DNA from: Patagioenas fasciata
Taxonomy: Eukaryota; Chordata; Aves; Columbiformes; Columbidae
Direction: 5' to 3'
NCBI RefSeq assembly: GCF_037038585.1
Contig: NC_092520.1
Location: 149,233,104 to 149,297,103 of the forward strand
Length of the DNA stretch: 64,000 nucleotides
The notes beneath the pieces are model-generated. The model had not been told where the DNA came from. It was given only the letters and a program-made list of their open reading frames with translations, and did not search any database. The position numbers were made by a program, and so were the translations under genes. Shown one piece after another: positions 32,592-63,516 of the stretch; within the stretch, counting starts at the first letter, position 1; every line of letters starts with the position of its first letter.

Positions 32592-32643
32592 ATGGTGGGA
32601 GTAGGGTTCCTTGTGCTGCTGGTGCCCCTTCTTGTTCTATGTG
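32592..32643 (+). pseudogene. OVCH1: Ovochymase exon 1, signal peptide
   Basis: ATG at 32592 in the context ACCATGG opens MVGVGFLVLLVPLLVLC, a clean hydrophobic signal sequence, followed by donor GTGAGT at 32644. It ends in phase 1, which fits the two-base start of the exon at 35095. It is still intact. The assignment rests on position, phase and signal-peptide character. Confidence 0.7.
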
Positions 32644-35094
32644 GTGAGTCCTGTGTGTGGATTGTGGGGTGAGGGCTGTGGGGTGGTGTGTCCCAGTGTG
32701 GGGGGTTTACAGCAGTGAGCACTAGCTTTTTCTGCTCTTTTTAGGGTACCAAACAGGTGAATACAAACAGTTGGTTTTCAGAAATTATACTGGTGCTTGG
32801 TGTGTTTATTCCTGGTGAGTGATTTTTGGACTGCCCCTACTGAAAGCTTTTCTTACCCTCTCCATCTGGGTGCTGTTTTCCCACAACTCTCTCCTGGCTG
32901 CTGTGGCAAGAGAGCAGTTCCCCATGTAGGCTGCTCAGCTGCTGTGTGATCCCTTGGCTGTGCAAGAAAGAGCAATGGCTTGGTCCTGTTGAGTGGCTGA
33001 CTGGTGTCAATCAGGTCAGAAAAACGTCTAGGAGAGCCATGAATGGCAGCGCGTTCTCAAAAATCTTTCTTATGCATCCTCCTGCAGTGGTGAACATATT
33101 TGTAACTCCCATTCTGGCCTGCTACCATATCCATGGAAAAATTTATTTGCTAGGGATGCTTATAGATAAGAGAAGGGAATAGTAATGTAACTAGTGCTAA
33201 AAAGATCTGCCCACCTGGGGCAAGAGAAAGGATAACCACCTAACTGCCATTCTTCCCACCCTTCTTCAATATGATGCTTATCCTGCTGTTGCTAGTGCTA
33301 TTTCTCTCCCCACCCAAGGGAATGGTGTTTTCTCCATCATTTACTTCCCTGATAAAGTCTATTTATTTTCTACTTCACTAGTAGACTTGCTGCTATAGCA
33401 ATAATCACCACAATGTCTTCTTGGAAAAGCTATTCAGCAGGAAGGGCTAAGGAGAGCTTGGTTCAGGTCAATGGCTTAGAAAATTGTGCCTGATTTCATG
33501 ATTGAGCTTTCTGCAGTAGTCAGCTGTTTTGAGGCCAGAGAGTGTCCTGGGAATATGATGAAATGCTGTTAAAAAAGGGAGGGAGAGAGAGGCTGGCCTG
33601 AATGGGACAGCAAAGAGCTCAGCCTCTCTACAGCCAGGAGTGCTTCAGGAATTGTGCAAGGATCCCCACAGCTTGTGGGGTGAGGCCCACTTGTTGCTGC
33701 TGAGGTCTTGGGGTGGCTGGCCATCCAGGTAGAGGAGAAAGACATGGGCTCCTCAGTTCACTGGCACTTGAGTAGTACGGTGTGAGAGATTGGTGGGCTT
33801 TCTAATGCTTGCCAATCTGATGGGCAGGTTAAGCAAGTAGCATTGCCTTGAAGCCTAAGCAGAGGACATAGGGCCCAAAGTTAAGGAGAGATCTGGAAGG
33901 GTATCATTGTGATAGTTGGTAACTTTTTGGATTCAGATTCAGTCTCCTGGTGACTCCATTGAGTTATTCCAGGCTCTTGCCTGGACAAACACCGTGTGAG
34001 GACCTCCTGAATCATGAGCATTATGTGTGTGTGTGTCTGGGAACCGAACTCTTATCCCAGCCTCGGCTTGAGAGAGGCAGAGGACCTCTCCTGTTGGCAT
34101 GGAAACGCATTGGGCAGGAGTGATTAACAAAGTGATTTTAGCTGATGCAGACACAAGCCAGTTGAAGGGTGTGGAGGAAGAGCTGCTGTCCTCTTCCCAG
34201 CAGAGGAGCCAGAAGCTCGATGCTAACCCTTTCCTGAAACCACCCAGCCTGGAGAAGCAGACCTCTGGTATGAGCAGTCGCAAACGGTTCCTTTTCCTTG
34301 CGTCCCAAGTATTAGAGATCATTCCTCCTGTGCGATCTTTGCTGTGATGATAGCATTTTGGAGCTGACCTAGGGGAGCAGCACACCCCTTCCTTTTCCCC
34401 CCTCCCCAGCATGTGGTCCAACAGACCTGTCAGTGTGTGCATCGGTCCCCGCTGGGTGAGGGCTGAGCGGGGTTTTCCCAGAGAACATAAATGTGATGGC
34501 TACAAATTTGTCTGAAACTGCACAATTCAATGAAGCATCTAAAACTTAATCAGATCCAGCCATTCCTGGCTGGACCCCAATCTAAGTCAAAAGGCCCTGT
34601 GCTTATTGTCCACTTTTTAAAGGCACAATTGGTGCCAAAAGCAATGTGAGAAAGCTCTGTTTCCCCAGGAAACTTAAGGTATAGAAGCTTTGAAATAATA
34701 AACTTTGAATAAAGTAGGGTGGCATCATTGTAACTTGTTGCATTTGTTACCTCATTTTGTAAGTCCTAGTTGCATTTCATGAAGAGCAATTAGGCTCCTG
34801 GATGAAATCTGCATTTGTTTTTTTTTTCAGTGTGCGTACACACCATGAAAGTACCTCACAGGAGACCTCAGCTTTGCATACATGAGCTTCTTATCAAGAA
34901 ATACAGTTTCTATGCATTTTCATTTATTTCCATATAATTGCCTTCAGCTTGGAGCTCAGGCTGGAGCTAGGAAAGCTGCGACACCAGGGGTTTGTCCCAT
35001 TAATTCCCTTCGTGTCAGAAGAGCCTGAGGTGATGTATTTGAGCATATGGGGGGTTGTCTCACTGCAAAACTCTCTTGTTTGTCTTCTGTGTAG

Positions 35095-35213
35095 ACCTGA
35101 AACATAGAGTTCACCCCATCAACCTGAAGAGCACAGATGATGCTCTGCCACTGGGATTCTTCTCTCAAATCCTTGGTGAGAGAGAGTCGGTGCCTGGAGG
35201 GCAGCCCTGGCAG
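35095..35213 (+). pseudogene. OVCH1: Ovochymase protease 1, activation-site exon
   Basis: Acceptor CTTCTGTGTAG; ends CCC TGG CAG before GTCTGT. It reads SQILGERESVPGGQPWQ, the trypsin-family N-terminus usually seen as R-IVGG...PWQ. The activation Arg is Gln here and the Gly-Gly after it is Gly-Glu, so tryptic activation would fail. The frame is open. A short CR1 sits 70 bases downstream. Confidence 0.85.
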
Positions 35214-35283
35214 GTCTGTGTTGCAGTACGCTGCCTTCCTCCTGGAAAAGGTGAAGGAGAGACAGCAGCTTTCTTCCTCAAGC

Positions 35284-35383
35284 CATAGAATTGTAGAATC
35301 ATTTAGGTTGGAAGAGACCCTCAAGATCATTGAGTCCAATCATTAACCTAACGCTGGCACTAAACCATGTCCCTAAGAAATCA
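35284..35383 (-). mobile_element. Short CR1 3' fragment
   Basis: It begins ATAGAATTGTAGAATCATTT and runs through TGGCACTAAACCATGTCC. Same subfamily as the copies at 31720 and 52943. It lies 70 bases after the first protease 1 exon. Confidence 0.82.
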
Positions 35384-36183
35384 TTGAATGCTGCTCAGTC
35401 AAGTTGAACTAAAAGTCTTTCTTACCCAGCTTCCCAGGCTGACTCCCCTCCCAAAGTAGGAGGAAATGAGCTGATCTAATAGTGTAGACAAGTCTCTGGC
35501 TGCCATGAGCTAATGCAACTGCGGAGTTTTTGTGATGTGCACCAGCTGATGATTTGCTGGGTTTTATGGTATAGCAAGAGGCTGCAGAGGAAAGTTGCCT
35601 CACCTGATGGTTTGTGTTCACATAAGAAAAACACAGAGCAATGACTGTGGGAGGAAATTAGACAAGTACCTGAGCAGGACATGGTTTTATTTAGAAAAGT
35701 GCTACTTGTTTGCACATGTGGCAAACAGTATTTGCCACCTCCCTCTCCCTAAAAGCCAGTCCCAGCACACAGATCAGCTTGAAAATGTATGCAGATAGTA
35801 GCGTGAAGGGCAGGAAGGAAAAGGAGGGGGTGGTGTAGGAGGAAGGTAGGGTGCTAGGGTTGGGGGATGGATCCTCTGAGCGGCATCAAGCCTTGGAAGC
35901 TCAGGAACACAAGGATGAGGAGTGAGAAGGCTGTTCATTCCCCTCTGGTTTGGGGTGCTCCGGAGTCTCAATCCTCTCATGCTGCACTGCAGCTGAAGGT
36001 GGTTGCCAAGGGTCAGCAATGGCTTGGAAATGACTCCTCTCGGCTCCAGGTAGCTGGGCATCCCACACAAACACTGGGAGGAAAAAGTTGTTTTCCAGGC
36101 TGGGATGATCTTTTTTATTTCACATTTTGGAGAGGTGATAGGACTCTCCTAATCTCAAAACATACCCAAGCCTTTCTTTGAAG

Positions 36184-36281
36184 GTGTCCCTCAGACTGGG
36201 CCATTTCCATTTCTGTAATGGTGGTTTGGTCGGAGGAGATGTGATTATTACCACCACTCACTGTGTGGTCAGCCTGCAGCA
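36184..36281 (+). pseudogene. OVCH1: Ovochymase protease 1, catalytic His exon
   Basis: It starts in phase 0 with VSLRLGHFHFCNGGLVGG, then DVIITTTHCVVSLQQ, corresponding to the usual CGGSL...VLTAAHC. The catalytic His is present, but the AAHC alanines are Thr. The expected donor after 36281 reads ATAAGT where GTAAGT is expected. With this donor the phase (2) fits the next exon exactly (CA plus G gives Gln). Confidence 0.87.
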
Positions 36282-38697
36282 ATAAGTCAGCCTGACCTCC
36301 TCACTTGTTCTTGATGCCTCTTGAAGCAGAAGTTCTTCTTATGATGTGGGGAGCTCCTGAGCTCAGGTATGTGGTTCTCAGTCAGGGAGGGAAATGCTCC
36401 CCCTGGGACTGAGTGCTCTGCCACTGTCAGATCTGCCAGATGTCCTTGAGCGACTGGTGCACCCCCCAGCACCCTGCTTGCTCCTGCTGGTTCTCTGCAT
36501 GGTTCTCCCCAAAGCCTGGGGAGAGGGGTCCCCTGCACAGGGAGATTGTGAATCAAATTTGAATGTCCTGTTCAGTGCCCAGACCAGAGAAGCATTTCTG
36601 AGGCAGAAGGAGCAGCACTGCAGCTTCCTAGTAAAAGCAGCCCTGGCAAATATCCCATTACTCCTGGCAGTCACATTGGCTTCTGCACTTTTAATGCAAG
36701 ACCAGCTTTACAGGTCACGCTACAGACCTCTTAATGGGCAGGGACAATGATATAAGTGGCCCCTTTGCCAGCCCTTTTATAATCCATTATAATGTAATTG
36801 CAGACCAGTCAGCTTCACATCTGTTTCTTGCTCAACTTGAGCATCGTTTTTGAGGGCTGATGTTGAATAATGATGAAGTCGCTATGGTACAAAAATTTCA
36901 ATGTGCAAGAATAACCTTGATAACGAGGCACCTCCTTGTTTCTCTGTTCAATGCAAAACTAGCCAGTGCTATTGCTCTCCAGTGTTATGTTACCAATGCT
37001 GTTCCTATGTTCCCATTGCTGCAGCATTTGCATTCCCAGATGATCCCAGTGTTAGATGTTGCTGGGAAGTATGGGAGCTTTGCAGCTCTAATAAACAGCC
37101 TCCTGGGCTTAATGCTGAGCTGTGCTATTAGTGGGTCTGTTACCTGTGGCTGGAAGTGATTAGAAAATGAGAGGAATGATTTTCCTGAGAGTGTGTATGT
37201 ATGTATGTGTGTGGGGGGGATATATGTTAATTTACTAGAAAGCATTGAAGCAAAGACTCAAGTTGAACCCCCAGTATCTTGAATCAAAATGTGCAAGGCC
37301 ACACTTCAGGGCAGGCAGCTGTAATACACCATGTGCCTACCAGCACCCTCAAACCAGGCTGTCAAGACTTGTCACCTCTGAAGTCTTCATGGGTGATATA
37401 GTGTGGTGGTGATTCACAGCGGTCAGATTTTCATGAAGGGCTGTAATCCCATGGGGGTTAGAAGGGTTTGAGGACAGGGATTAAAAAAATTAATTAAAAA
37501 GAAACCTATGGAACTACTAGAAATCAGTGATAAATAGGCTCCAAAGCACTGGGGTTTCTTGGGCTCTCAAGTGAACATAGTTTGGAGAGAAAAGGCAGTT
37601 GCTTCAGGTCTGGGTTTTATCCTGTTTTGGTAATAGCGCAGGCAGACCTTTAATCAGGCCTAATTGCAAAGGTCTTGAAACGAGGTCGCTGCTGTGTTGT
37701 GCCCTGTGCTGTGAGAGTTGGTAAGGGCAAATGCTGACAGCCAAAACAGATGAGTTGTGTGGCTCCTATGGGCATCTCTTGCAGTGCCTGGTACTGAGCA
37801 GATCGATGAACCCTGTTCATACCTCCCATTGAGAGCAAAACTGTCTTACCCTGCACCCAATGCGATTGCTGAGTCCCCAGAGGAGATTAAACTCCTTTGC
37901 TAAATATCTGGTTGGCTAAAGATGTGATCTACTGCCAATCTATTTATTGGGTAACTATTCTCATAGCATAACTATCTACCCAATGGTAAAAGACATACTG
38001 AATGGTGTTTTGACTCTGCTGCACCAAATTGCTGTAAATTCAACTGTGGCATTATATTGCTTATAAAATATGCAGAAAAACCATAATGGGCATACACTCA
38101 TCTAGTGTTAATTTAAAATACATGTAACTACATACAATTATCATAAAGCTCTCAGACATAGGACTCTGCTCATCTCCTAAATGTGCTGATAACAAAATTA
38201 GGAAGATTTATGGAGCCAAAACGACTAGGCAATTGCTTTTAAGGCTTTTCATGTGCCTTTTAGAATCCTAGACGGGAGGTAACAGGAGCTGAACTTGATG
38301 TTTCAAGGCCAAAAACCAGCACAGAGGTTCTGTGAGTCCCAAGGCAAAAAGATAAACTGTTGTTTTCCCTCCACAGAGCTGGCAGCAAAGAAATCTGCTG
38401 GCATGCCCCCTGGCCTCCTGGCAGCTTGCTGCTGCCCAGGTATGAACAGTGGCTTGATAGATAGCAGATGAAACAAGAAACCTATTTGTCAATTTAAAAG
38501 TAAGTCCAGTTTTTTCAGCTGGAGGTCAGGGAATCCTCTGTGATGCTGATAATGTGGAATCAGCCCTGCTGAAAGTCCAGCCCCAGCTCCCAGGGTAGGA
38601 GCACATTGTGAGTTTTCAGGCTCAGTATTTTCAGGCTCAGTTTGCTTTGTGGTGGAAGCCTCTTCCCTCATCACCCTGGCACTGTTTTTTCCACCAG

Positions 38698-38861
38698 GAA
38701 ACTCCTGAAGAGCCTGGTGGTGACAGAGGAGGAGTGTCACCTCCAGTGGGCTGGCAGGCAGGAGCAGAACATCCCTGTCTTGTGTGTCATTACCCAGCCC
38801 ATGTTCAACCAGCTGCACTACATAGTCTGTGACGTGGCCCTGCAGCACTCAGTCCAGTATG
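38698..38861 (+). pseudogene. OVCH1: Ovochymase protease 1, catalytic Asp exon
   Basis: Acceptor TTTTTTCCACCAG, donor GTAAGT. The open frame reads KLLKSLVVTEEECHLQWAG, then QEQNIPV, FNQLHYIVCDVAL and QHSVQYG. DVAL carries the catalytic Asp. Compared with the family pattern DIALLYLKH, about three residues are missing after VAL, suggesting a small in-frame deletion. Confidence 0.87.
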
Positions 38862-39126
38862 GTAAGTAGGAACCCAAGGGCTGGAGGTGAGCTGCCTCTG
38901 TGAGAGGGTGCTTTATGCAGGCAAAGTCCTCATCTGATTCACTGGTCTGGAAAAAACACCCCTCTTCCTTCCTTCCCTGTGCTCTCTATGCTAGAGAAGT
39001 ATTCCCTCAGTTATGCCATTTATTCTCACTGAGGTAACACAATTTGGTTAATTCTTGTCCTAGGCTTTGATTAGTTGTCCCAGAAGTTTATCCCTTGGTC
39101 AGGGTCCGTGTCCTGGATAAGCCCAT

Positions 39127-39754
39127 CACAGAATATTAGGGATTGGAAGGGACCTCGAAAGATTATCTAGTCCAGTGCCCCCACCGGAGCAGGAACACCT
39201 AGATGAGGCTACACAGGAATGTGTCCAGGTGGGTTTTGAATGTCTCCAGAGAAGGAGACTCCACAACCTCCCTGGACAGCCTGTTCCAGTGTTCTGTCAG
39301 CTTCACTGAGAAGAAGTTTCTTCTCAAATTTAAATGGAACCTCATGTGTTTCAGTTTTAACCCATTACCCCTTGTCTTACCATTGATTGTCACCGAGAAG
39401 AGCCTGGCTCCATCCTCGTGACACTCATCCTTTATATATTTATAAACATTAACGAGGTCACCCATCAGTCTCCTCTTCTCTAAGATGAAGAGACCCAACT
39501 CCCTCAGCCTTTCCTCATAAGGGAGATGCTCCACTCCCTTCATCATCTTTGTTGCCCTGCGCTGGACTCTCTCGAGCAGTTCCCTGTGCTGCTTGAACTG
39601 AGAGGCCCAGAACTGGACACAATATTCCAGATGTGGTCTCACAAGGGCGGAGTAGAGCAGGAGGAGAACCTCTCTGGACCTATGAACCACCCCTCTTCTA
39701 ATACATCCCAGGATGCCATTGGCTTTCCTGGCCACAAGGGCACAGTGCTGGATG
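39127..39754 (-). mobile_element. CR1 LINE fragment with reverse transcriptase C-terminus
   Basis: On the minus strand an open frame of 178 codons (39199-39735) reads [20 protein letters not shown], then [19 protein letters not shown] and TFLCSLI. The intact frame suggests a fairly young insertion. It sits in a protease 1 intron of the ovochymase remnant. Confidence 0.9.
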
Positions 39755-41000
39755 AATGTTTTCTCTGTGTATCAGATTCCTGTGTGCTTTGTGTTCCCCT
39801 CACACAAACTATACCAGCACAGTTCCCTTTGGCCCCGCTGTGCTAACGCAAGCGCTCAGCTAGCTGCTGGAAAGCCATGGGCTTCCCCTTGGCTGCAGCC
39901 CTGGACCATTAGCTAGCTGTGGCTGCAGGGGTCCTGCCCACTGAGCAGCAGGCTGGATTAAAACCTGCTCACTCCAAGCACTTCTGTGGGCAAAGGCAAA
40001 ACCTCTGGAGGCAATTTCAGGGTGTTGGAGGTAAAGAAGTAGCACAAGTCTCTAACTTTTTAGGCTTTTCAAAGGCAATCCTGTGAGTTATATGGAGCTC
40101 TGATGGGTTACAGCTAATTGGCCATGACTGGCTGCGACCATCAGATGGCAGATCAGCCAACATAAAACAACCTTCTGTCACTGTCATGTCTCTCATCACT
40201 GGCTCAGATTTTGATAGCCTTACTGTTTGCCCATGATGGCAGGAATAAAGGAAATAAGACCCAAGAACTGTTCATTTTGGGGCTCAAACATCCTGCCAGG
40301 CAGCATGAGGAAAGCTGCTTGAGGGCTGCCTGTGTGCTGTACTCTGTGGCTAGACAGACATATCTCTAGGCATGAACTAGGCTCGACATCATCTGAGCCA
40401 TATGGACAACCCTTGAGGCAACTACAGGGCTCCCTGACCAGCCCTTCTGAAGGGTCAGAACTGCCAATGCCCTATTAGGGCAGCCAAGGAGAACTGTCAT
40501 CCATTTTTCTCCCAATATCAAGAAAAAACCCAAGCAATAAGAGTCTGAATTGAACTGTGTTGAGTTTTCTGTGTCCTGCATAATTTCTCTGATCTGATCT
40601 CTGGTCTTTGGGGACAATGGTGCAAAGAGTTTCCCAAGCACTGTCCAATTTCCATGCTGTATGAAATTGATACAAAGGCAACTTGCTTTCATTTTGTGGT
40701 CCCTGTCATGCTGTTCCCTTTTCTTTCGTCCCCTTTCCAAGTGTGCTTCTGCTTAAGTTAACAAAGCTAACAACCTTCGTGATCTCTCTCCCTCTGAATT
40801 TGCCTCATGTAAATTCAATTACATGTCGCTAACTTCAGTGTGTATTCCCATTTTGTATATACCTACGTATGACCATGGTATTTCAGAAAGGGGAGAAATG
40901 GAACAGTGTGACTTGAAGGATGCTGTTCATGCTTGTAAATCAGGAATGCTCCTAGAAGGACAGGGTTCAGGCGCCCATTTATACACCCTTTCCTCTGCAG

Positions 41001-41089
41001 GGGACAATGTTTGGCCCTCCTGCCTCATCCACAAGGATGAAGACTTCCAGGCTGGGACACTGTGTGTGGCTGGGGCAAGGTGTCTGAGG
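41001..41089 (+). pseudogene. OVCH1: Ovochymase protease 1, exon with a frameshift before GWG
   Basis: Acceptor CCTTTCCTCTGCAG; GTGAGC donor at 41090. The phase fits the previous exon (YG-DNVWPSCL). The frame DNVWPSCLIHKDEDFQAGTL is correct until TLCV. The conserved trypsin segment GWGKVSEG then continues in another frame, showing a small indel near 41067-41071. Confidence 0.86.
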
Positions 41090-42078
41090 GTGAGCCAAAT
41101 GGTAGGGTCTTCTGGTCACAGTTGCAGGAATAAAGAGTAACAGATAAGGGAAAAGAGATGATACTTTATTTTCAGAAATAGAAATGCAAGAGAAGGTGAC
41201 TTCTGCCAGATGGAAAATTCAGGTACCCCTTTGCTCATCAGGTCTTCTCTGCCTGTCAGAGGACTGGCCTCTGTAGGGATGTGCAGATCAGCATTTTCCT
41301 GCAGTGTGGGACCTTGGAGAACATTAGGGAAGGTTGAACTTTGCAGAACTGCTGTGCATATTCATGCATGCATATCAAAGCCTCTCAGAAGCAGAGCTGT
41401 CCTTACAAGATTTTACAAAAGTGAGAATAGTTCCCTTGCATGTAAAAATGTATATTTTTTTTATACTCCTCTAGATATCAGAAATTTGTTCCCTTAGAGG
41501 AATTGCACTTGCTTGGGTTTGGTGGATTTTGAAGGAGATGGGAATGTCTGTGAATGATGCTTTTTATTTTCATGTTCTCAGTGGTTTGAGGCTCATTCAC
41601 AGCAGAGGAGACAGAGGAGACCTGCCTGTCCCCCACTCTCCAGCAGCCCACCCAGGAGAGAGCATGCCTGTCTCCCAACCAGGGCTGATCTCTCATGCTA
41701 GCAGCTCGCTGAAGGCTTCGTCCTAGCCCCTGAAAGTCTCCAGCCCTGTAGCAGGAAGATACTTGGGAGAAGAGAGTGATGTCCATTGTCCAACCAGCAG
41801 AGGAATTACATGCTTTGACCTTGTTTAGCAGCACTTCTCTCTGCACTGGCAGAGGGTAAACCAATGCATTACCTGACTAGCTGGGTGCATGTGCTTGGTG
41901 GTCCCAAACTGCCTCAAAACCAGGTAGGCAAATGGTGTGGGACTCACCTCAATCACTTGTGCTGGGGTGTCGGGGAAGGGGTGGATGTGGCTCCCAGGAG
42001 TGTGAGTTGCTGACTGTCATTTGGTCAGAGGGGTGAGCTGTCTTGCAGTTGCTGGATGTGGCCTGACTGCTTCCACAG

Positions 42079-43680: not shown

Positions 43681-43864
43681 AGTGATTCCAGAGCTCCCCT
43701 TGCATGTCTGAGCACCTGGACTCTGGCTGGTGTGGTATCCTGGGAGGATGGTTGTGCCAGAGGATGGGATACCATCAGGGGAAGCACCATGGCCCAGGGC
43801 TCTCCAGGCATCTTCTTCTGGGTGGCTGCATTCACAGACTTCATTGCCCAGTCCGTGGCACCAG
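43681..43864 (+). pseudogene. OVCH1: Ovochymase protease 1, catalytic Ser exon
   Basis: Phase-0 start after AACAG, donor GTAGGT. It reads SDSRAPLACLSTWTLAGVVS, then WEDGCARGWD and SPGIFFWVAAFTDFIAQSV, the end of a trypsin fold. The motif that should be GDSGGPL is SDSRAPL: the catalytic Ser remains, but three motif glycines, including the oxyanion-hole Gly, are replaced. The frame is open across the exon. Confidence 0.88.
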
Positions 43865-45788
43865 GTAGGTGTGAGTACTGGGAGGCTTTTTCCTCGCCTG
43901 TCTGTTCAGAACTGTAGGGACCCAAATTGCCATGCTATTGCTGCCTCCCTCCACTCCACACACAGCAGTTCTGTTTAATTCCCAACTGCTGCATCAGCAG
44001 CAAAGTATATAATCTTTAATTTGGGATGGCAAAACCAAAGCTTCAAATGCATAAATCCTCCTTCAGAAACCCTGTTACAGTAGCAGGTCCGACCCATGTG
44101 TCCTCTGAAGGCAGCTTGAGTAGCCTTCAGCTTTTCCCTCTCTCTGGCTGAATGCAGCCCTTCCAGCTTGGTGAGGTGTCCCTTGAGTGCTGCATAACAG
44201 CCCTGCTCTAATAAAAGCTTGCTTTGAGCACTTGCCAGCTTGCAAAGGCTATTGTGCTCCTGAAACAGCATGCGGGATTGATTGGGGGTTATCTCCTCAT
44301 CAAACACAACTTTGAGTGGGAAGAGGGGCACTATATTAAGTGCTGTGGTTTTAGTGGCTTATCAGAAGTGCCTTTTATAGGTAGGCACAGGTCTAGTGAC
44401 TCCCTGCTTGCCACTTGTATTTTTCTCTACAGATGATTACAGGGCTAATACAAGTTATTAAAGAGATAGTGTTATTTCCGTCATAGCCGTCAAAGTTGAA
44501 GCATTGGTATTAACTAATACCTGACCTATTATGGCTTCGCTAGGGATCCTTAATGATCGTGCTTTCAAAGGGGAACTGTCTGCAGTTAAGAAGATGCCTC
44601 TTAATTGGCAAAAGTAACTGCAAGGAGCAGAAGCCACATGGCTACAAAATGGGTGTGTTACCCTTTGCAAAGCAGAGCTATTGGGATTCGAGCAGACCAA
44701 ATGCCCATAGAAGATGAAGGAAAGGCAAACGTAAAAGTGGTGCTTCATTAAAACGAAGCTTGGAGTAGACATGTCAGATCTTAGCAGGCTGAATGAATGC
44801 AAGCCCCAGTGTTGGTGGGATAGGTTCCAAAAGTTGGGGGATTTTTAAGTAGGACTTTGGGAAAGAAATAATGTGCTCTCAACCAAGGCTTCTCTCAGCC
44901 ACATGTCAAACACTTTGTGTTTGAAACAACTGCAATGCTGTAGCCCATGCCTTGACTGACAGTGCTTGTTCCGAGGTATCCCGTACAGCTCTGTTCTCTC
45001 CCAGTCTGCTGTGCCAAGCTCTCTCCATGCACCAACAGAGTGCAGTTCCCAATGCGTCCTTGCTCTTTGGAGAAAGTGGCCATATTCAGTATACCCAGGC
45101 TTTGTAGGATGACTACCCTGACAACAGGTAACTGATGTAGTAGCCAAATTGCTGGGTCTTCCTTGGGGCACCCACCCAAGTGTTTCCCAGAGATCCAGCT
45201 TGTGCTGCTCCCAGCAGTGTCTGTATGATGGGGGTTATGTGTTTTCTGCAATAAAAATCTCCAGCTACACTTGCTGGGCAGGATAATGCTGTGGGGGAAG
45301 GAAGACACAGTCTATTAGTAACACAGAGTCTGCATGAGCCACACTCCTAAAATGGCTGTAGCTGTCTAGAGATCTGTTCTACCCTTTATCCTTTTGTCTG
45401 GCCATATCAGTGTCACCTGGCACAAAGAAGCTTTCAGCCCCTGAGAGAGGCAGGGGAATGTGATGGACTGAGCCGGCAGTGTTAGTCACACAGCACAAAG
45501 CTGTTGCTGCTGTAAGGTACCATTAGTCCCCATCTAGTGCTGAGCAAATTCACAACAGTCCTCTGCTTTTGGTCACTCTTCCCAGATGGCTTATGCTAAG
45601 GGAGAAGATAATAAAATTTACCAGGTGGAGCTGGTGACATCAGTTGACAACTCCTGCTGTGTGCTTGTAGGAAAGCAGCCACTGAAGCCTCCCAGCCCAT
45701 GGTGGGACTGACAAGGGCTAAGCTCAGCCATGCAGATACATACCTTTACTGTTTCTTGCTTCTAACCTGTGCACCTGGAATACAACAG

Positions 45789-45891
45789 TGCCAGAGGACA
45801 AAATCATCTTGATACGCTTCACCAAATTATATGTGGAGTACCCAGTTGAATGTGACTGTGTCCCTCTCTTCAAACAGAAGAGAGCTGATCA
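45789..45891 (+). pseudogene. OVCH1: Ovochymase CUB1, middle exon
   Basis: Acceptor ATACAACAG, donor GTAAGT. It reads VPEDKIILIRFTKLYVEYPV, then ECDCVPLF, the central strands of a CUB domain. A frameshift near the end is needed to reach the frame (L-I-S) that joins the next exon. The preceding CUB1 exon was not recognised between 43.87 and 45.79 kb. Confidence 0.8.
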
Positions 45892-46738: not shown

Positions 46739-46866
46739 GTAAATTCTGCAGGAATGTGTTCCCAGCCCCTCTGTTGGCAGAGTTGGACCAGGTCACCATT
46801 ACTTTTGTTTCTGATGGGAACAACACCAGCTCACTTTCATGGCCAGCCATGCGGACTCTGAAGCAG
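46739..46866 (+). pseudogene. OVCH1: Ovochymase CUB1, last exon; frameshift
   Basis: It reads KFCRNVFPAPLLAELDQVTI, then TFVSDGNNT, a typical CUB C-terminal half. It changes frame by one base near 46828 into LTFMASHADSEAG, ending before the GTGACC donor at 46867. The phase (1) fits the next exon. Confidence 0.84.
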
Positions 46867-47047: not shown

Positions 47048-47178
47048 GTTTGGGCTGTGGGAGTGTCGCAATGCTAGTGGAAGAGGGGAAGATTGATACT
47101 GCTAATTACCCTGGCTTGTATCCCAGGAACACAAAGTGCCACTGGCTCATTGAGGCTCCAGCAGAGTATGTTGTATAG
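47048..47178 (+). pseudogene. OVCH1: Ovochymase CUB2, first exon ending in a TAG
   Basis: Acceptor CTGTATTGCAG, donor GTAATA. It reads LGCGSVAMLVEEGKIDTANY, then PGLYPRNTKCHWLIEAPAEY, the CUB start with its first two Cys. The last codon, 47176-47178, is TAG directly before the donor, where a Gln or similar codon is expected. Confidence 0.87.
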
Positions 47179-48212: not shown

Positions 48213-48303
48213 CTGAAGTTTGAAGACGTTGTGTAACTTAGTCCAAGCTGCATTTATGATGCAGTTACTCTTCACAGTGATGATGAAGAAGAAAACCGGC
48301 TGG
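48213..48303 (+). pseudogene. OVCH1: Ovochymase CUB2, middle exon with a TAA
   Basis: Acceptor TCCTCTTTGCAG, donor GTGAGT. It reads LKFEDVV, then TAA at 48234-48236, then LSPSCIYDAVTLHSDDEEEN, with the CUB Cys and the YDAV strand. Phase 0 start and phase 1 end are as expected. The following CUB2 exon was not found before 51.5 kb. Confidence 0.87.
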
Positions 48304-50470: not shown

Positions 50471-50923
50471 TGATTAACATTGCTTTGCAGGCGCTTCTTC
50501 AGCAGAAGTTCTCATTTCAATCAGAAAGTCACCAAGACTCTAGGGCTGTGGGTTTTTTTTAGAAACCTAGATTAGCTAAAGCTGTGAGTGCTCACAGGAG
50601 GACATTTCTCACGTTAGAAATACAGCTTCTTGTTCATTCCCTCAGCTAATCTCTGTGCATTCTCAACTCCCAAACCACTGCTGAGTCCAGAGAATGCCAT
50701 GCTGGCACGTTTTGAAAGTGATAGTGAGAACAGCTTCAGAGGGTTCAGAGCCCAGCTTGCTTTTGTTCATTCAGGTTAGCAGAGAGATGCTTGCTGTGCC
50801 TAACAATGTCTGCATCATCTGCAGCTATTCTTAGATGCATGATCTTATTTTTAAGCTAATCCTGCTGCATTCTGTCGAAGTAACTTTAAAACAGAATAGC
50901 TGTTTGTGGCAAAGCAGCTCACT

Positions 50924-51577: not shown

Positions 51578-51752
51578 ATGCCTGTGGCCTTCCCCCATTT
51601 ACTTTCCAGTGGCTGTTCAAGTGTGTTAGTGGGACTGAGAAGGCCTATCCTCACTGTTGGCCATGGCATGCTGCCCTGAAGCTCCTTGGAGACCACCAGT
51701 GTCATCACCCTATATAGCAGCTGAAAGACACACGCTCTGTGTAGCTGTGAAT
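51578..51752 (+). pseudogene. OVCH1: Ovochymase protease 2, activation and His region
   Basis: Acceptor GCTCTCTTGCAG. It reads DACGLPPFTFQWLFK, CVSGTEKAYPHCWPW and HAALKLLGDHQC. The activation site R-IVGG is K-CVSG, so it is lost. A frameshift after DHQC leads to a degenerate stretch, ERHTL then CVAVNV, which looks like the TAAHC region with the four codons holding the catalytic His deleted. The 3' end is approximate. Confidence 0.78.
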
Positions 51753-52163
51753 GTGACCAAAGCATCCCAAAGCCACCTCAGCTCCTTTCCCCATGCTCTG
51801 CACTCCTCCTGCTCCTCCAGGCAGGGGTGCAAACAGCTGGAGAGCTATAAATTACATTCACACCTTCATGTCCTCTACAAAACCTTCCTTCTGCCCTTCA
51901 TCCACAATCACTGGTTTTAGACAGGGCAGCAGGTTGGTCTTGCTTGTAAGAGATCCATTAAAGTTAATTGGACTATCTACTGTCAGAGCTGTAGCAAAAC
52001 CAGAACTTACACAACATATTTGTTGTGGTGAGCAGATCTTGCTCAGCAGTCCTGGGAATAACTGACTAATTAAAGAAGAGCCAGAAGGGATGTATGACTG
52101 CTGAATAAGGAAGCTGTATGGCTGACTGTAAGTAGCTCCAATATGTTTGCTTTAATTATACAG

Positions 52164-52236
52164 ATCCAATAAACTCTTGCACTGGACTGTGACAGCAGAA
52201 GAACATGACAGAGCCCTGAGAGAGTTAATAGAACAG
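52164..52236 (+). pseudogene. OVCH1: Ovochymase protease 2, small exon
   Basis: Acceptor TTAATTATACAG, donor GTAAAA. It reads SNKLLHWTVTAEEHDRALRE then LIEQ, like the family pattern WTV.AGDHDR. The frame is open and ends in phase 0, fitting the GTG start of the next exon at 52910. Confidence 0.82.
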
Positions 52237-52909: not shown

Positions 52910-53440
52910 GTGAAAACCACCACGATAAATCTCCACTTCATGGAATCATAGAATCATTTTGATTGGAAAAGACCCTCAAGATCATTGAGTCCAACCACTA
53001 ACCTAACACTGGCACTAAACCATTTCCCTAAGAACTTCATCTACATGTCTCTTAAACACCTCCAGGGTGTCTCTTTAACACCTCTACCGTGTCCCTGGGC
53101 AGCCTGTTTCAATGTCTGACAACCCTCTATGTGAAGAAATTTTTCCAAGTGTCTAATCTAAACCTCCCCTGGTGTAATCTGAGGCCATTTCCTCTCATCC
53201 TATCACTTGCTACTTCAGATAAGACACCAACACCCTCCTCACTACAACCTCCTTTCAGGTAGTTGTAGAGAGCCATAAGGTCTCCCCTCTCAGCCTCCAT
53301 GCTGAGCTATGACTCTAACATTGCCCTGGTGCACTGAGACACCCCTCTAGACTACAACACTACTGAGCCCAGTGCGTCTGCCCAACAGCACAAACACGTT
53401 ATCTTCTTCACTGTGTCTAAATAGTCGATCATCAAAGAAG
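52910..53440 (+). pseudogene. OVCH1: Ovochymase protease 2, catalytic Asp exon split by a CR1
   Basis: The left piece (52910-52942) follows CTGGTCACAG and reads VKTTTINLHFM. The right piece (53298-53440) resumes with [12 protein letters not shown], a TGA, then DTPLDYNTT. After a shift comes VRLPNSTNTLSSSLC, then GIIKE before GTGGCT. A CR1 occupies 52943-53297. The catalytic Asp position (DIAL) is Asn (NIAL). The phase-1 end fits the next exon. Most of the GWG motif is deleted. Confidence 0.85.
52943..53297 (-). mobile_element. CR1 LINE inserted in an ovochymase protease exon
   Basis: It begins GAATCATAGAATCATTTTGA and is 5'-truncated at ...AGGTCTCCCCTCTCAGCCTC. The four bases CATG flank it on both sides (52939-52942 and 53298-53301), a possible short target duplication. 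The host exon resumes in the same frame after it. Confidence 0.88.
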
Positions 53441-53548: not shown

Positions 53549-53700
53549 ATGGGAGCCCAGCTAGGCAGTTGCAGCAGACAAGTGCCTGTACTTGAGAATG
53601 AAATCTGTGAGAGAAATTACTACTTCATTTACCTGGAAGTATCACAGCCAGGATGTTCTGTGCTGGCTTTGTTTCTGTGGGAGGCCAGGAGTCCTGTCAG
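53549..53700 (+). pseudogene. OVCH1: Ovochymase protease 2, exon before the catalytic Ser
   Basis: Acceptor ATTTCCCAAGCAG, donor GTAAGG. The blocks GSPARQLQQ, QVPVLENEICERNYYF and HLPGSITARMFCAGFVSVGG then QESCQ are all recognisable. They lie in different frames, so at least two frameshifts exist (near 53578 and 53628). Confidence 0.87.
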
Positions 53701-54543: not shown

Positions 54544-54669
54544 GGTGGTTCTGGTTGCCCTTTGGTTTGCAGCAAGGAAAATGAACTGTTTACCTTTTCA
54601 GCCTGAAGAAACCAGTGGTCTGTTCAAGGGTGAAGATTTTCCTAGACTGGATAAGACTGATGATAAAAG
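54544..54669 (+). pseudogene. OVCH1: Ovochymase protease 2, catalytic Ser exon with internal deletion
   Basis: It reads GGSGCPLVCSKENELFTF. The expected GDSGGPLVC is GGSGCPLVC, so the Asp beside the catalytic Ser and one Gly are lost. The YGITSWG.GCA section is missing. The end LKKPVVCSRVKIFLDWIRLM follows in another frame, up to the GTGAGT donor. The bases just before 54544 are GG where an acceptor AG is expected. Confidence 0.83.
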
Positions 54670-55735: not shown

Positions 55736-56476
55736 GCCAGCAGAAAATGGAGGACTTCCAGTATAAGTTGGGGAACAACCTATTAAAGAGCAGTGTAGGG
55801 GAAAGGGACCTGGAGGCCCTGGTGAACAGCAGGATGACCATGAGCCAGCACTGTGTCCTTGTGGCCAGGAAGGCCAATGGCATCCTGGGGTGTATTAGAA
55901 GGGGGTGGTTAGTAGGTCGAGAGAGGTTCTCCTTCCCCTCTACTCTGCCCTGGTGAGACCACAGCTGGAATATTGTGTCCAGTTCTGGGCTCCTCAGTTC
56001 CAGAAGGTCAGGGAACTGCTGGAGAGAGCCCAGCGCAGGGCAACAAAGATGATGAAGGGAGTGGAGCATCTCTCTTATGAGGAAAGGCTGAGGGAGATGG
56101 GTCTCTTTAGTTTGGAGAAGAGGAGATTGAGGGCCGACCTCATCAATGTTTATAAATATGCAAAGGGTGAGTGTCACGAGGATGGAGCCAGGCTCTTCTC
56201 GGTGACAACCAATGATAGGACAAGGGGTAATGGGTACAAATGGGAACACAGGAGGTTCCACTTAAATATGAGAGGAAACGTTTTCTCAGTGAGGGTGCCA
56301 GAGCACTGGAACAGGCTGCCCAGGGGGGTTGTGGAGTCTCCTTCTCTGGAGACATTCAAATTCTGCCTGGACACATTCCTGTGTAACCTCATCCAGGTGT
56401 TCCTGCACTGGCAGGGGGATTGGACTAGATGATCTTTTGAGGTCCCTTCCAATCCCTAACATTCTGTGATTCTGCT
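55736..56476 (+). mobile_element. CR1 LINE fragment, longest copy in window
   Basis: It encodes the remnant MEDFQYKLGNNLL, then [14 protein letters not shown]. After a frameshift near 55905 comes [19 protein letters not shown] up to [11 protein letters not shown]. It ends with AACATTCTGTGATTCTG. Its close likeness to the copies at 21615 and 39127 points to one subfamily. Confidence 0.9.
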
Positions 56477-58749
56477 AAGAGGAATATATTTTTCTTCTTT
56501 CTTTTTTTTTTTTTTTTCCCTGTATTCTGAATAAAGTGTGCTGCAGTTATGAGCAGGAAATTAAAGTATATATTAAAGAAAAGAGCACGTTGTGGATAAT
56601 CCTTCACTCTTGGGTCAGATGAGCACTTGGACTCTGCTGCTTTGTGCTGCAGCTGCCAGTCTTCGTCCCTTGTGGCACCATTCATAGTCCCACATTGACC
56701 TAACAGAAATGTTAGTACAGGTGCTGACTAAGGGAGAGCTTTCTTCTAAACTAAAACCAGTTAACAGAACAAGTAATCACTTGTATGGTAGCCAGGCCAT
56801 CCCCACAGATAAGCTGAGAGCTGGCTGGAGATATTCCATACCCTTGGATCTGACACAACTGGCTGCCGACCACTGATTCTCTGAAGGCTGTAATGGCTTT
56901 CATGGATTTACTGTAGGTCAGGCATTTTGTGCAGGGAATTGCTCAGCTCTGTAGCTGTAAATCTTTCTCAGAGGTGGAGGCTGTAGAATTGCATACAGCT
57001 TTTACATATGGCACCATACAAAAGATTCAGAGCCCTGAGGGCTCTTTGAGCCAGATACTGACCATTGATTCCTTTATCTGTCTTTCATATGATTGCCTTC
57101 TTATTGAGGCAAGTGCTTGGCTGTGCTGACTCTTCCTGAGTTTTGTATAATATTGAACTGTCTCCAAGCACTCTGTGCCTCTGCTCAGATGCTAAACAGA
57201 GCATGCTGCTGGGAAGTAAACTGGAGACCTCAGCACAGGAGCAGCCAGAGAAGCTGCCCACAAAGCTGTTGGGGTAGATGTGCACACAGGGTGACTGCAG
57301 AACTGTGTGTGTGGAGCTGACGTGTGCCAGAGGCTGCAGCGCTTGGTTTGCAGAAGGTGGTGGAGCTTGTTCAGTTCAGAAGCAGCTGTAGGTAGAGCCT
57401 AGTAACAAGGTTGAGTCTCCTAACATCTTGATGTAAGTGGACACAGCTCTCTGGATTTTGTCCTGGGAAGAGTATGTGTGTGTGTACACAGGGAGATGGA
57501 GGGAGAGAGGAAGGGAGGGGGGCTGATGAGCAGACCAAGAGAAGAAAGACTCTGTTGCAGTGAGAAGCAATGGGCTCCCCTTGTGAGAAAGCCAGGGGTC
57601 TGTTAATACTGATGCTGCAGGTTTGGTTGCACATGGGAATATTGCTTCATCTGCTCTTTCTCTCCCTCACTATTCTTGGAATGAGGTATTTGGGCTTTTG
57701 TGTGTATGTGGTTTTCTGTTGTTGCTGGTTTTTTGTTTTGTTTTCAGTCGTCCATGTTTTAGGTTGTGTTTCCCAGGGCACGGACAGTTACTTAATCTCT
57801 TACGCATGTACCTAGCATAACCAGAGCTGTGATTTCAGGTGAGGTGCTCTGTCAGGTTGCTGCTGTCTTTAAAGCACAGCAAACAGCCCTGTCCTGCTGT
57901 TGTGCCTCCTCCTGCCTATTAAACATTTAAATGTTTCTCCACATCTAATATTGTGACAGTATTGGAGGAAGACTGATGAAAAGGCTGAAGTACCCCTGAA
58001 TTACTGGTGACACTCGCTTTGGCAACTAATTGCAGAATGCTGTTGCTCAAAGCTTTAACAAGCAACCTGCTCAGGAGGGAATGTGCTACTGGCTCTGCTT
58101 GCAGACTTGTGCTGCAGCTGGGCTGTTGGCATGCAGCATGTGCTTTACTCCTCTTCCCACTTGGCATCCTTGCTGGTGCTCCAAGACATCACGCCACTGA
58201 GATAAAAATAGGTCCCCTGAAGCAATAAGCAACAGGAGGTGGGGATGCTTTTTCTCCTCAGGCAAGTGCAGCACAGCCAGCAACTGTGAGGGCTTCATTA
58301 ACACAGCAGCGCCAGGGATGGTTTGTAGGGGCTGGAAATACACGTGAGGCTCTTGCCTGCACTGGAGAGGCCTTGTCTCGGCTGAGGCACTCATCGCTGG
58401 ATGAGCTCCAAGTCATGGCAAGTGCATGGTGCTGTAATGACCTGAATTGGGATGTCATCCTCAATGCACTAAACAGTTTTTAAAATGAACTTAGAGACAA
58501 GCTCTTGTGGCTCAGCCTGCTGGGCTTTACCAACTTCCAGACCATTTTACCCACACCTGCACTGCCCTTTGGTGCTGTCCCCCTGTGCCAGCACAGGGTC
58601 TCCATCCTCCAGCAGTGCTGAATACCTGCAGGACCCTTGCTTTGTCTTTGTGCAAAGCTGTGTGATTAATTCATTGTGCTCTTTTTAAAACCTAAACTGG
58701 TGGAAGAGGTTTTAGTTTTTTGGGTTGGTTTTTGCTTTTTAAAAGATCT

Positions 58750-58754
58750 CATCC

Positions 58755-58811
<57 letters not shown>

Positions 58812-58892
58812 CCTACCTACCTACCTACCTACCTACCTACCTACCTACCTACCTACCTACCTATCAACCTACCTACCTACCTACCTATCTAC
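58750..58892. repeat. Compound tetranucleotide microsatellite (ATCT)n then (ACCT)n
   Basis: An ATCT run from about 58750 passes into an ACCT run from about 58809, with a few ATCT or ATCA interruptions near 58861-58890. The change between the two unit types is one C/T position. It lies in the large ovochymase intron and is likely length-variable. Confidence 0.95.
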
Positions 58893-59913
58893 TTTAAAGG
58901 TCATTCTCCTGGAGGAAGGCTACTTTCCCTATAACTCAGCCTGGCCAAGCTCTGCTCCATGGTGGGGTAAGCTTCATCATGCTTCCCTGTGTATGCCCTC
59001 AGACAGTTGCTGCTGCTGTGCAATGCCGTTCACACCGCCGCACCTTCCCCAGGAGGCAAATGTTCCTCATCTCCCTTCTGGATTTGGAAGATTTCTACTG
59101 AAGGGCTCAGCTTTCCCCATTTGTGATCTCAGCATCCCATGCAGGTAGGCAGAGACACTGTGTGGTGTCAGCATCCAGTCTGTGCAGAAAGCTCATAAAT
59201 GTTGGTGTGGGTGGAAGCACACTTAAACAGATTTTAAGCTACTCTACAGAGGGTACAACTTCAAAAATTGCTGCCCTGGGAGGCAGACAACCCTATTATG
59301 GTTGGTACTAAAGGGACATGCAATTCTCATTAGTGATCTTGTTTTCACTCCTCCTGCTCAGTTATAACCACTTAGATGCCTCCAAATATTTCCCTGTTGA
59401 TTTGGCCTCTTATTTAACAAGTGTCGAATCTGACTGCCCTGTGTGTGCATACAGCTACAGGCTAAGCCTGCTCTCCTCCTGTGTTTCTGGAGAACCAGAA
59501 AGTGCATAGACAAAAGCAAAATATTTCAGAACTCTTGTCAATGGCTGGTCACCAGATCAATTAAAAAAATATATATAATTGCATTTCTTCCTCAGTAATG
59601 AGTGAGCATCTGAGGTTGGTAGGCATGTTAGATTGGGTACTTGACTGGCCTGGTATTTGTTTATCTGTTTTTCAGGCATTAATTCAAAGCACAACTCAGA
59701 GCAAATTTGCAAGCAGGTCTGCTTTCCTTTAAGGCCTGGCAGCTCACTCGTTTTTGCTGTCTGGCTTGTGTCTGATGCCTGGCTCTCCAAGGCAAAGGCG
59801 ACAGGACTGCCTTGTGGTCCTGCACGTTGAGAACTCCTGCGAGAACTCCTGCATGCTTGTACCAGCCTGCATGCTGGACCCTAAGAAATTATTCAACTGA
59901 CAGGAATGGGTTT

Positions 59914-59984: not shown

Positions 59985-62900
59985 CCTATGTCGGATTAAG
60001 CTTTTTATCAGATCCATTCATTTTGACCTTTCCAGTGGACCTGCTGTAGCTGTGCTCTTGCCAGTGAAATCAAGATATGCAGACTTCCAGCACGTTTGCT
60101 AATACTGGGGAAAGGGGAAAATAGGCTACAAAACCAACCAAACAAAAAACAACCAACCAACCAAACAAAAAACTCATCACAATAACAATGAAAAAAACTC
60201 TAGATATTGGAAAACCATTTTGCACTAACCTTATTGACCTATCTTTAATCACAGGCAGAACTGGTAGTTTTTGTAAAAAGCTCTTACTGTCTTTTTTAAC
60301 GCTTTTGTCACTCAAGTGCACATTTATCCACAGAATGTGCATCAGGTGTGGAGTTAGAAGAGCCCCGGGGGTTTATCTCCATTCCTTCCTCATCAGCATA
60401 GGTGGGAAGCCCAGAGTGCTCTTGGATACCGTGAAGGGCATGGCAAATATTATAGTAAAGCATCTGTCAATAACATCATCACTGAACTGCCAAGAGGAGT
60501 TTCTTGGGTTTTATGAAGAGAGTCAGCAAGGAAGATTAGTGCTAGGTAGCAACAAATGGTCCAGCTGAGGACACTCAGTATTAGAAATTTCTCACTTTCA
60601 CCTGGTCCAGCTACAGAAAGGGTTTCCAGCACCAAATGCATGGATCCTATGTGTCGCAACCTTCAGTTAACATTTAGAGCCCAGGCCATAAACTTGGCTG
60701 AAGATCGTAAACCCTGTGTCAGTGTGTTGCATTGGCTCAGTGAGAGAACAGCCCTCTCAATACACGAAGAAATAAGCTGTGGTAATTGGGAAAATCTTTA
60801 TAGGCAATTGCCTATATAAGTGCCTTGTCACCTCTTGTACCAGCAGCTTCTTGTTCAAAGTCAACCTCCCTTCCTTCATCGAAGTGAGATGTAGGTATTA
60901 TTTGCCTCTTGGAGCTGGAATGGATGACACTGAAGCGTTAGTGTCTGGGAAACAGACATTCCTGGGCAAAACCTATGGTATTCTTCACCCTGACCCTGCT
61001 GAGGTGCAATCCCATCACTGAGACAACATCTCAATGAACACAATCCACAGCATTAAAGAAAGCTAAAATAAAATTAAATTGAGAACTCTAATTTTCTTTA
61101 CCCCAAAATCTAGGTTTCTGGAGGCCTGTGTGTTCATATGTGTGGCTTGCTCACATACTGCACATCATCCAGTTGAGTAAAATCCTCTGTATAGGTTTAG
61201 TTTATTGTGATTACAGATGTTATAAACCAGGTATACAGAAACATTTTTCCTGGGTAGGTATCCACACTGACACCCTGGTAGACGAAGTGTGGTGGAGAAA
61301 TCCACAATCAGCCTTTGGGAGTCTTGTGGGTGAATTCTAACGTATGTGTTCTCCAAATATTTTCAAAATGAAGTGATGCCTTTGGAGAAAGTTTTGGGAT
61401 AACAGGTATTCTGTGTAGACTTTCATCCTCCCATATCACACTGGTGGTGATGGCTAATGCACTCGGGAAGAGGCCCTATTGAACTTTTCTCTGGGTGTAG
61501 ATGAGAGCTATGTGTATGATCATCATAACTCTCATATAAGGGAAATAAGCTGTTTTTTCCTGACACTTGAACAACAACACCCTTTTGTTACCAAATGCAG
61601 TAGTAATGTTTCCAGATGAAGACCTTTAGAGAAATAGAACATGACAGGAATATTTTATTTAATTAAGGAAAAAAAAAAAAAACCAAACAACAAAAACAAA
61701 TAAACAAAAACTCACCACCAAATCTAAAGTTTAACATGCCAGTTAACTCTGAGTTAGGAGTGAAAGGACAGGAGAGGAGAAAGACAGAGGATGTGCTAAG
61801 GAGCTCTTAGAGAACTCCACAGATATCTTCCCCCAATAACTTATTTATTAGAGCACACAGAAAAATTCTAAAAGTATGTCTATTACAGCTGAGAATAACA
61901 GTTTAACTATCACAACTATTTCTATCCAAGACAGAGGAAAATTATATCAGAAATGGGATCATCAGTCAAACTTTTCCCTGAAAGGAGTCTGATAGCTCTC
62001 TGGAGCATTCTACAGCACAAGGACATGCTATGTAACAGCATTTGTAATGGCTGGCAGTTTTTCAAGGTTGGGTATATTAAACTAGATTCCTATGTCTATT
62101 TGTTTGCTAATATACTGAAAAAGCCTGTTTTCCTTTTTTCTTTTTTTTTTTTTCTTCCATCTCCTGCTGTAGAGCCCATGAGCAACAGAAGCCAGTGGAT
62201 GCCTGTCTCTCAACAAAATTACTTCTATTGAGGAACCTAAAACATAGATTGGGACTTTAATGTCAGCACGAGCAAGAACTTCAGGACGATTGTGTGACAA
62301 GGGAGAAAGAGGCTGGAAAACTCAGACAGCTAGAAAGTAACCTGAAAACAATTTAGCATGCTCAACAACTGAAAGTACCTATCAGTGGAGACTGAGTAAT
62401 GGCAAAAATTTCCTGTCCTATCCCATTTTCAATTTAAGTCCAAGAAAGAACCCATAAGTAGTCTAGCAGCTTTTCAGGATAGATAAAACAAACAAAATGC
62501 CTAGCCCCATAGACAGACTTTGAGCAGTCAATACTATGCAATGAACTGAACCCATCCTTGCTGGCCAGAAGTAGGACACTTCTTGCGAGACGGTGACTGG
62601 AGGTGCTTCCTACTGCCTCATCAGGAGGTGACTGCAGAGCAGCTACCTTACCAGCATGGAATATATCTCACATGTGAATAGTTCCCTGCTTTTTTGCCTT
62701 ATTGTATGACTTTTGTCTACGTTTCTCAAATGGCATTTTTCCCGTGGTGATGGTGTGTTTGAATTTGCTTCTAGTTGTGCTATGAAACACTCTGCAGCCT
62801 CCTGTGGTCCACCAGAGCCCCGGACCTGTGGCAAAGGTGCTGCTCCACTCCACTGGCCCTGCTGCTTTCAGTGTTGAATACCTGATACTCAGGGTTCAAG

Positions 62901-63377
62901 GTCAAGTCAGTTGTCCAGTTGTTCAGTCAAGCTGTACAACCACTTCTCTCTAAAATGACCTTCTTGACCCAAGCTTCAAGAATGTACTAGCTTTCAAGAT
63001 GCCTTTATGGGCTTTCTGGAGTTGTTCCATGCAGAAGTTCTCAAAAAATAAGTGAAAATAGAACTGTCCTAAGCTGTAGCCTGGATAAAAATGGCTGTTA
63101 TGTAAATTCTGAAGCTTGAAACAAGCCTGAAGTAAGTTTGAGTTTTGTAGGATTATGATGAACGAGGTCTAGCCTGGTAGAATAAGAATGTAGTAGCTTT
63201 GCTAATTGGTTTGTCTTCTAATTGAATACACCTTTTTCTAAATTGACTCTCACTCATGATACACCCTTTCAATGGGAGTCATATGTTATCTAGGAATTGT
63301 CCTAGTACCCACTGAAATACCATATAAAAGTTACTAATAAAGCTGAATTTTATGCTCTATATTCTTACTCTTCCTAG

Positions 63378-63516
63378 GACAAAAACTTGGCAGTGCCTTA
63401 AAAAGTCCCAAGGAGATGAGCTCGGAGTTGTCACAATGCACGGATGTCATCCTTACAAATTGGGAAGCGAACATCCAGTCACCAGGCTGCCCCATGAGAT
63501 GTGCAAATGCTGCCAG
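63378..63516 (+). pseudogene. OVCH1: Ovochymase further CUB domain, first exon
   Basis: Acceptor CTTACTCTTCCTAG, donor GTGAGC. One frame is open throughout and reads QKLGSALKSPKEM, SQCTDVILTNWEANIQSPG and CPMRCANAA, a CUB start (C..VILTN..G.IQSPG). The two-base start fits the phase-1 end of the protease 2 Ser exon. This exon has no inactivating lesion, though SPGYP has become SPGCP. Later exons lie beyond the window. Confidence 0.8.

Follow-up and report, generated by a model that had tools for sequence, protein, structure and literature searches.

The window analysed here, a stretch of 64,000 nucleotides from Patagioenas fasciata (C1:149233104-149297103, + strand), very probably holds a unitary pseudogene of OVCH1, formerly a gene for a secreted polyprotease that combined three chymotrypsin-like domains with three or more CUB domains. 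This call is based on stop codons, exon lengths and splice sites in exons with recognisable borders, each compared with the open exons of the paralogue OVCH2 in the same genome. Introns and splice borders are kept over 22 kb at the home locus. An origin as a retrocopy was thus rejected, in agreement with the first-pass annotation of this DNA, which had called the locus a unitary loss.

Exon remnants along the window

The reference for our comparisons was a gene of the OVCH2 type, whose exons lie within C5:9476013-9491262 on the - strand. We took it to be OVCH2 on two grounds: the human OVCH2 region presumably has its counterpart on bird chromosome 5, and the gene is the second ovochymase of this genome. 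It shares the protease-CUB-CUB-protease order and the exon phases with the OVCH1 remnant, but it lies on another chromosome, all 14 of its delimited exons are open with ag/gt borders (the first exon was left unplaced), and both of its protease domains keep their catalytic motifs. Ancestral states of OVCH1 were inferred from this paralogue, which is 40.7% identical to the remnant at the amino-acid level over 469 aligned codons. In these codons, drawn from 11 exons, the differences at the three codon positions number 210/165/304, a pattern that would be expected for sequence long held as protein.

We scanned the three + strand frames of positions 26001-64000, with stops read as X, against Pfam. 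One exon gave a CUB match that is not near chance (E 5.8e-07), while the Trypsin match on the His exon (E 0.015) is near chance on its own; beyond these two stretches no Trypsin or CUB match was found in these frames. Peptides of the 14 OVCH2 exons were then used as templates for frameshift-tolerant alignment to the window and the 40 kb downstream of it, and their scores were compared with those obtained on 60 dinucleotide shuffles of 32001-76000. The templates matched the + strand in gene order from 35148 to 54669, and the best template scores on the - strand were 38-55. Twelve of the 14 templates outscored all 60 shuffles; the score of the P1a template was reached in 12/60 and that of the P1c template in 1/60. 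For 10 of the 12 templates never reached by shuffles, the best match was at the expected place. The best match of the P1e template was the protease 2 counterpart (53548), and that of the P2d template was the Ser exon of a third protease (74538).

Home-made trypsin and CUB profiles at a threshold of 7 bits pointed to five places, all on the + strand between 43.7 and 50.8 kb, with nothing at this threshold on the - strand or in 1-32 kb. The CUB profile included the window's own CUB exon, so that this one match arises by construction. The profiles were built from few sequences, and one version was too noisy; the others gave four or five places, including one of 7.9 bits.

Reading of the DNA gave 16 exon remnants at 32592-54669 on the + strand, plus two tentative CUB exons up to 63516 (OVCH2 lengths in brackets; scores are those of OVCH2 templates):

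32592..32643, + strand: exon 1, signal peptide MVGVGFLVLLVPLLVLC; donor gtgagt, phase 1; no matched OVCH2 exon
35148..35213, + strand: protease 1 activation-site exon; donor present, 5' end left unplaced
36184..36281, + strand: protease 1 His57 exon (P1b); score 69, 0/60 shuffles; 98 nt (92), phase 0 to 2 as in OVCH2
38698..38861, + strand: protease 1 Asp102 exon (P1c); open; score 50, weak alone; 164 nt (173), borders and phases agree with OVCH2
41001..41089, + strand: protease 1 CLP...GWG exon (P1d); score 68, 0/60 shuffles; 89 nt (96)
43681..43864, + strand: protease 1 Ser195 exon (P1f); open; score 141, 0/60 shuffles; 184 nt (196), phase 0 to 1 as in OVCH2
45766..45891, + strand: CUB1 middle exon (C1a); score 71, 0/60 shuffles; 126 nt (134)
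46739..46866, + strand: CUB1 last exon (C1b); score 65, 0/60 shuffles; 128 nt (141)
47048..47178, + strand: CUB2 first exon (C2a); Pfam CUB 5.8e-07; score 96, 0/60 shuffles; 131 nt and phases as in OVCH2
48213..48303, + strand: CUB2 middle exon (C2m); 91 nt (94), phases as in OVCH2
50646..50774, + strand: CUB2 last exon (C2b); open; score 102, 0/60 shuffles; 129 nt (132), phases as in OVCH2
51578..51774, + strand: protease 2 first exon (P2a); score 94, 0/60 shuffles; 3' end unplaced
52164..52236, + strand: short exon of protease 2, preceding the Asp exon (P2b0); open; P1c template 60, 1/60 shuffles
53259..53440, + strand: protease 2 Asp exon (P2b); score 65, 0/60 shuffles; 182 nt (196)
53549..53700, + strand: protease 2 exon before Ser (P2c); score 98, 0/60 shuffles; 152 nt as in OVCH2
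54544..54669, + strand: protease 2 Ser exon (P2d); score 50, weak alone; 126 nt (169)
60334..60437, + strand: tentative CUB3 first exon; two stops; score 43, near background
63378..63516, + strand: tentative first exon of a CUB domain; open, with acceptor and donor present; read by eye

Position 32592 is the ATG of the sole signal-peptide-like exon that passed the filter on the + strand of 26001-36000. The activation-site exon scored 67 with the P2a template, against a shuffle maximum of 55, while the P1a template was not significant there. The two exons at 38.7 kb and 54.5 kb, both weak by score, are supported by order, borders and motifs, the latter resting on its position and motif. The short exon P2b0 is without a delimited OVCH2 counterpart, and its borders are compatible with the flanking phases. 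No Pfam match was obtained for 63378..63516. The protease 1 exon before Ser was not found (the best candidate scored 41, with a template that had no control of its own), nor was the first exon of CUB1, for which there is a weak candidate at 45017-45111 (score 43). Scores for further CUB exons in 55-69 kb were near background, the best being 43 at 68206.

The first-pass annotation had described the locus as keeping the order, strand and splice phase of a protease-CUB-CUB-protease-CUB ovochymase. The order on the + strand was confirmed. The phases are those of OVCH2 in most remnants, but they differ in C1a, C1b and P1d, all three of which are broken. As to the domains, protease-CUB-CUB-protease stands; the third CUB is tentative within the window, and a third protease lies beyond it. 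The limits given there, 32592 and 63516, coincide with the ATG of the signal exon and the donor of the tentative CUB exon, but the gene continues past the latter.

Open frames unrelated to the exon table also occur in the window. Those at 31655-32104, 39199-39771, 50056-50406 and 55899-56432, in introns and upstream of the OVCH1 remnant, resemble what we take to be the reverse transcriptase end of CR1 retrotransposons, and the one at 58696-59148, with SIYLSIYL and PTYLPTYL, is a simple short-unit repeat.

Distribution of the lesions

Fourteen remnants, excluding the signal and activation-site exons, had borders that could be judged. Ten of them are broken (P1b, P1d, C1a, C1b, C2a, C2m, P2a, P2b, P2c and P2d) and four are open, namely P1c, P1f and C2b, whose phases match OVCH2, and P2b0. 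In length, P1c, P1f, C2b, P1b and C2a equal their OVCH2 counterparts or are off by a multiple of three; the offsets are 7 nt in P1d, 8 in C1a, 13 in C1b, 14 in P2b and 43 in P2d, P2a being not comparable.

Within the window, each of protease 1, CUB1, CUB2 and protease 2 carries at least one disabling change, in line with the earlier statement that lesions are spread along the gene. Protease 1 has QILGE at its activation site where OVCH2 has RIVGG, TTTHC in place of TAAHC, and at in place of gt at the donor of its His57 exon. The homologous pieces of P1d lie in two frames, with the change between 41065 and 41068, and P1f reads SDSRAP where OVCH2 reads GDSGGP. In CUB1, C1a is preceded by aa, not ag, and has a donor of phase 2, not 1, while C1b has a donor of phase 0, not 1, and its second piece, recognised by eye, shifts frame from 46827. 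In CUB2, the last codon of C2a is TAG (47176-47178) where OVCH2 has AAG, and C2m contains an in-frame TAA (48234-48236) between two intact splice sites. In protease 2, the conserved frame of P2a hits a stop five codons past GDHQC, and the positions of His57 and Cys58 were read by eye as Val and Asn. P2b has a TGA at 53335, is interrupted by stops whichever of the three frames is read, and has its homologous pieces out of frame with one another. P2c also has its pieces in different frames, with three stops in the conserved frame. P2d is preceded by gg, not ag, has pieces in two frames, and carries GGSGCP in place of GDSGGP.

Frameshifts called by the aligner were not used as evidence. The aligner counted 9 frameshifts and 1 stop in 510 codons of the OVCH1 remnant. 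For 18 control loci assumed to be intact, the corresponding figures over 117 trypsin-family matches, 5119 codons in all, were 70 frameshifts and 3 stops. The aligner also called 5 frameshifts when OVCH2 exons were matched with each other (12 matches), and the two that it called in 43681-43864 are false, the exon being open. Since other genes show a similar rate, aligner frameshift counts are no evidence for decay.

Could the lesions be assembly errors in a living gene? We hold this to be extremely improbable, as OVCH2 of the same assembly is open in 14/14 delimited exons and the changes in the catalytic motifs (SDSRAP, GGSGCP and TTTHC) are not of the indel type. A shortened working gene, built for example from the open exons only, seems very improbable as well. 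The Asp and Ser exons of protease 1, the last exon of CUB2 and one protease 2 exon are indeed open; however, no domain is complete. Protease 1 has lost a donor, has a length offset of 7 nt, is missing one exon and carries the altered Ser motif; CUB2 has two stops, and protease 2 is without the acceptor of its Ser exon. It is somewhat less unlikely, though still a minor possibility, that a non-coding RNA is made from the locus while the protein is dead. The signal-peptide exon is intact, as are many of the splice sites, and a human OVCH1 antisense RNA 1 is known (PMC10828349), but the sequence holds nothing that requires such a transcript. The unitary loss of OVCH1 is well supported.

Copy number, gene extent and neighbouring genes

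Any further copies were sought in the whole 1.45-Gb assembly of 359 contigs. With the window's CUB exon as bait, the search returned the exon itself (100%), a next match that is 46% identical (E 1.7e-4), and a match at C5:9482189 (39%, E 8.3e-4) adjoining trypsin exons. Two further exons, joined as one bait, matched their own locus at 94% and 95% and OVCH2 at 48% and 43%; two weak other matches had E above 0.2, one of them being 63% identical over 27 residues (E 0.25). With three exons as bait and the best candidates scored, no second OVCH1 copy was found in the assembly. An intact second copy was one of the findings named beforehand as speaking against a loss. The first-pass annotation had also asked what replaced OVCH1, and for this the two-protease OVCH2 on C5 is the obvious candidate.

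Other repeated CUB-like and trypsin-like loci came to light elsewhere in the genome. C11:38442111-38484819 holds more than 15 matches to positions 51-110 of the CUB profile, many of them 1790 bp apart and with near-identical scores, which we read as a CUB-domain gene that recently expanded in tandem. At C2:122304041-122614153 there are about 10 near-identical weak CUB-like matches, several spaced by about 15 kb and each with an internal TGA, that is, a repeated unit. Trypsin exons occur three times with identical scores at C1:129564652-129585279, two on the - strand and one on the + strand, as recent and partly inverted duplications.

Three further exons follow downstream of the window (in window coordinates). 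The CUB exon at 69165-69281 reached 63 with the C2b template, whose best shuffle gave 45. The His exon at 70699-70793, which contains stops, reached 61 with the P2a template, whose best shuffle gave 55. The Ser exon at 74538-74654, with GDSGWPLTC, scored 56 (0/60 shuffles). Nothing clear was found of terminal exons after 75 kb. Given the His and Ser exons of a third protease past the window, the ancestral protein probably had three protease domains, the third near 70.7-74.7 kb. The Xenopus ovochymase polyprotease, reportedly described by Lindsay and colleagues in 1999, is an active egg protease and is said to have three protease domains. The OVCH1 remnant resembles it in that a single chain combined multiple protease domains with multiple CUB domains, but the bird gene is dead.

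On the other side, upstream of the remnant, the window contains the following feature:

21633..23220, + strand: C-terminal TPR exons of TMTC1 in open frames (TPR at about 22.08-22.18 and 23.09-23.14 kb)

These frames match Pfam TPR_2 (1.1e-06) and, weakly, TPR_1 (0.016). The genome has four TMTC DUF1736 exons, and one of them lies on this strand, 48.5 kb upstream of the window. Since the DUF1736 and TPR exons share this strand, TMTC1 is likely the upstream neighbour, oriented as the OVCH1 remnant is; its choice among the four TMTC genes follows a gene order that we assume. An intact TMTC1 beside OVCH1, as claimed earlier, is thus likely as to position, while intactness was judged on the DUF1736 and TPR exons only.

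ERGIC2 adjoins OVCH1 in mammals. In this genome, an ERGIC2 bait placed the exons of that gene on the - strand (C1:199774399-199794278), at a distance of about 50.5 Mb from TMTC1/OVCH1 and in the opposite orientation; within the window and the following 40 kb, its matches were no better than E 5.8. The TMTC1-ERGIC2 interval that had been proposed for a survey is therefore absent here, and a large intrachromosomal rearrangement parts ERGIC2 from its mammalian neighbours. A chromosome inversion that broke at the 3' end of OVCH1, or close to it, might itself have inactivated the gene, and the distance and strand of ERGIC2 would fit. We consider this improbable, however, because no convincing piece of OVCH1 turned up in the 30 kb upstream of ERGIC2 (the score of one template, 54, was just as high as the best of its shuffles), because three protease domains are still on the TMTC1 side, and because the rearrangement may be common to birds with a living OVCH1.

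Age of the loss and ovochymases of other birds

A rough lesion clock places the loss of OVCH1 tens of millions of years ago. The clock uses 3 stops and 8 frame changes in 1933 nt (counts made by hand; anything from 7 to 9 frame changes would be defensible). Its point estimates are 18-52 million years, and the intervals span 4 to 102 million years. The neutral rates used are 1 to 1.9 per billion years, with indels at a tenth of that. Under our reading, selection on OVCH1 would have relaxed in the lineage of P. fasciata, a first inactivating change would then have been fixed, and stops, splice changes and frame changes would have accumulated neutrally over tens of millions of years, while OVCH2 may cover any remaining function in the egg coat or oviduct. 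The haemoglobins of this genome are pigeon-like. Three alpha-like and four beta-like globin genes were inspected, and one of each type was assembled. Of the single-domain chains, PDB 2r80_A was the best match of the alpha globin (293.6 bits, as for 3dhr_A; the next chain had 259.8); six fused two-domain constructs came higher only through summing of their scores. The beta globin, assembled from exons 1 and 2, scored 224.1 with 2r80_B and 217.6 with the runner-up. We take 2r80 to be pigeon haemoglobin.

A loss in all birds was set aside as improbable, as OVCH1 transcripts are reported in chicken and duck (PMC6839265 and PMC9243076). PMC3495648 gives chicken GeneID 769290 as ovochymase-2, four-fold over-expressed in the liver of laying hens and specific to the vitelline membrane, and PMC6839265 lists the same GeneID as OVCH1 and has OVCH2 in one of its sentences; the name of the chicken gene is thus uncertain in these sources. 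In ducks, both OVCH1 and OVCH2 are up in the ovaries of high layers (PMC9243076). Given these reports from hen liver and duck ovary, the loss is probably not general to birds, with the chicken name unsettled. The chicken and duck genes, possibly living orthologues as judged by name only, are expressed according to these papers, and the chicken gene is one of those listed for the vitelline membrane. Our literature searches turned up no report that we recognised as describing OVCH1 loss in birds.

A wider scenario, which we offer tentatively and rate well below an even chance, is that the ancestor of pigeons and doves lost OVCH1, tens of millions of years back, and that OVCH2 has since been their sole ovochymase. 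In that case pigeons would amount to a natural knock-out for an egg-coat polyprotease still produced by the hen's liver and deposited in the vitelline membrane, and the break in TMTC1-OVCH1-ERGIC2 beside the dead gene may have helped by cutting it off from regulatory DNA. The pigeon-wide loss, the takeover by OVCH2 and the role of the rearrangement each may hold. With a bird lineage that lacks OVCH1, one can ask whether the protein matters to fertilisation or to the egg coat in birds, whether its absence was followed by changes in OVCH2, and at what time the gene was lost.

Loss of a single gene in a bird lineage is a common class of event, and the case of OVCH1 is real but ordinary. STK33, described in PMC4509753 as a unitary pseudogene of neognath birds, is likewise a gene lost at its home locus in birds, though it is another gene and the loss is of another age.
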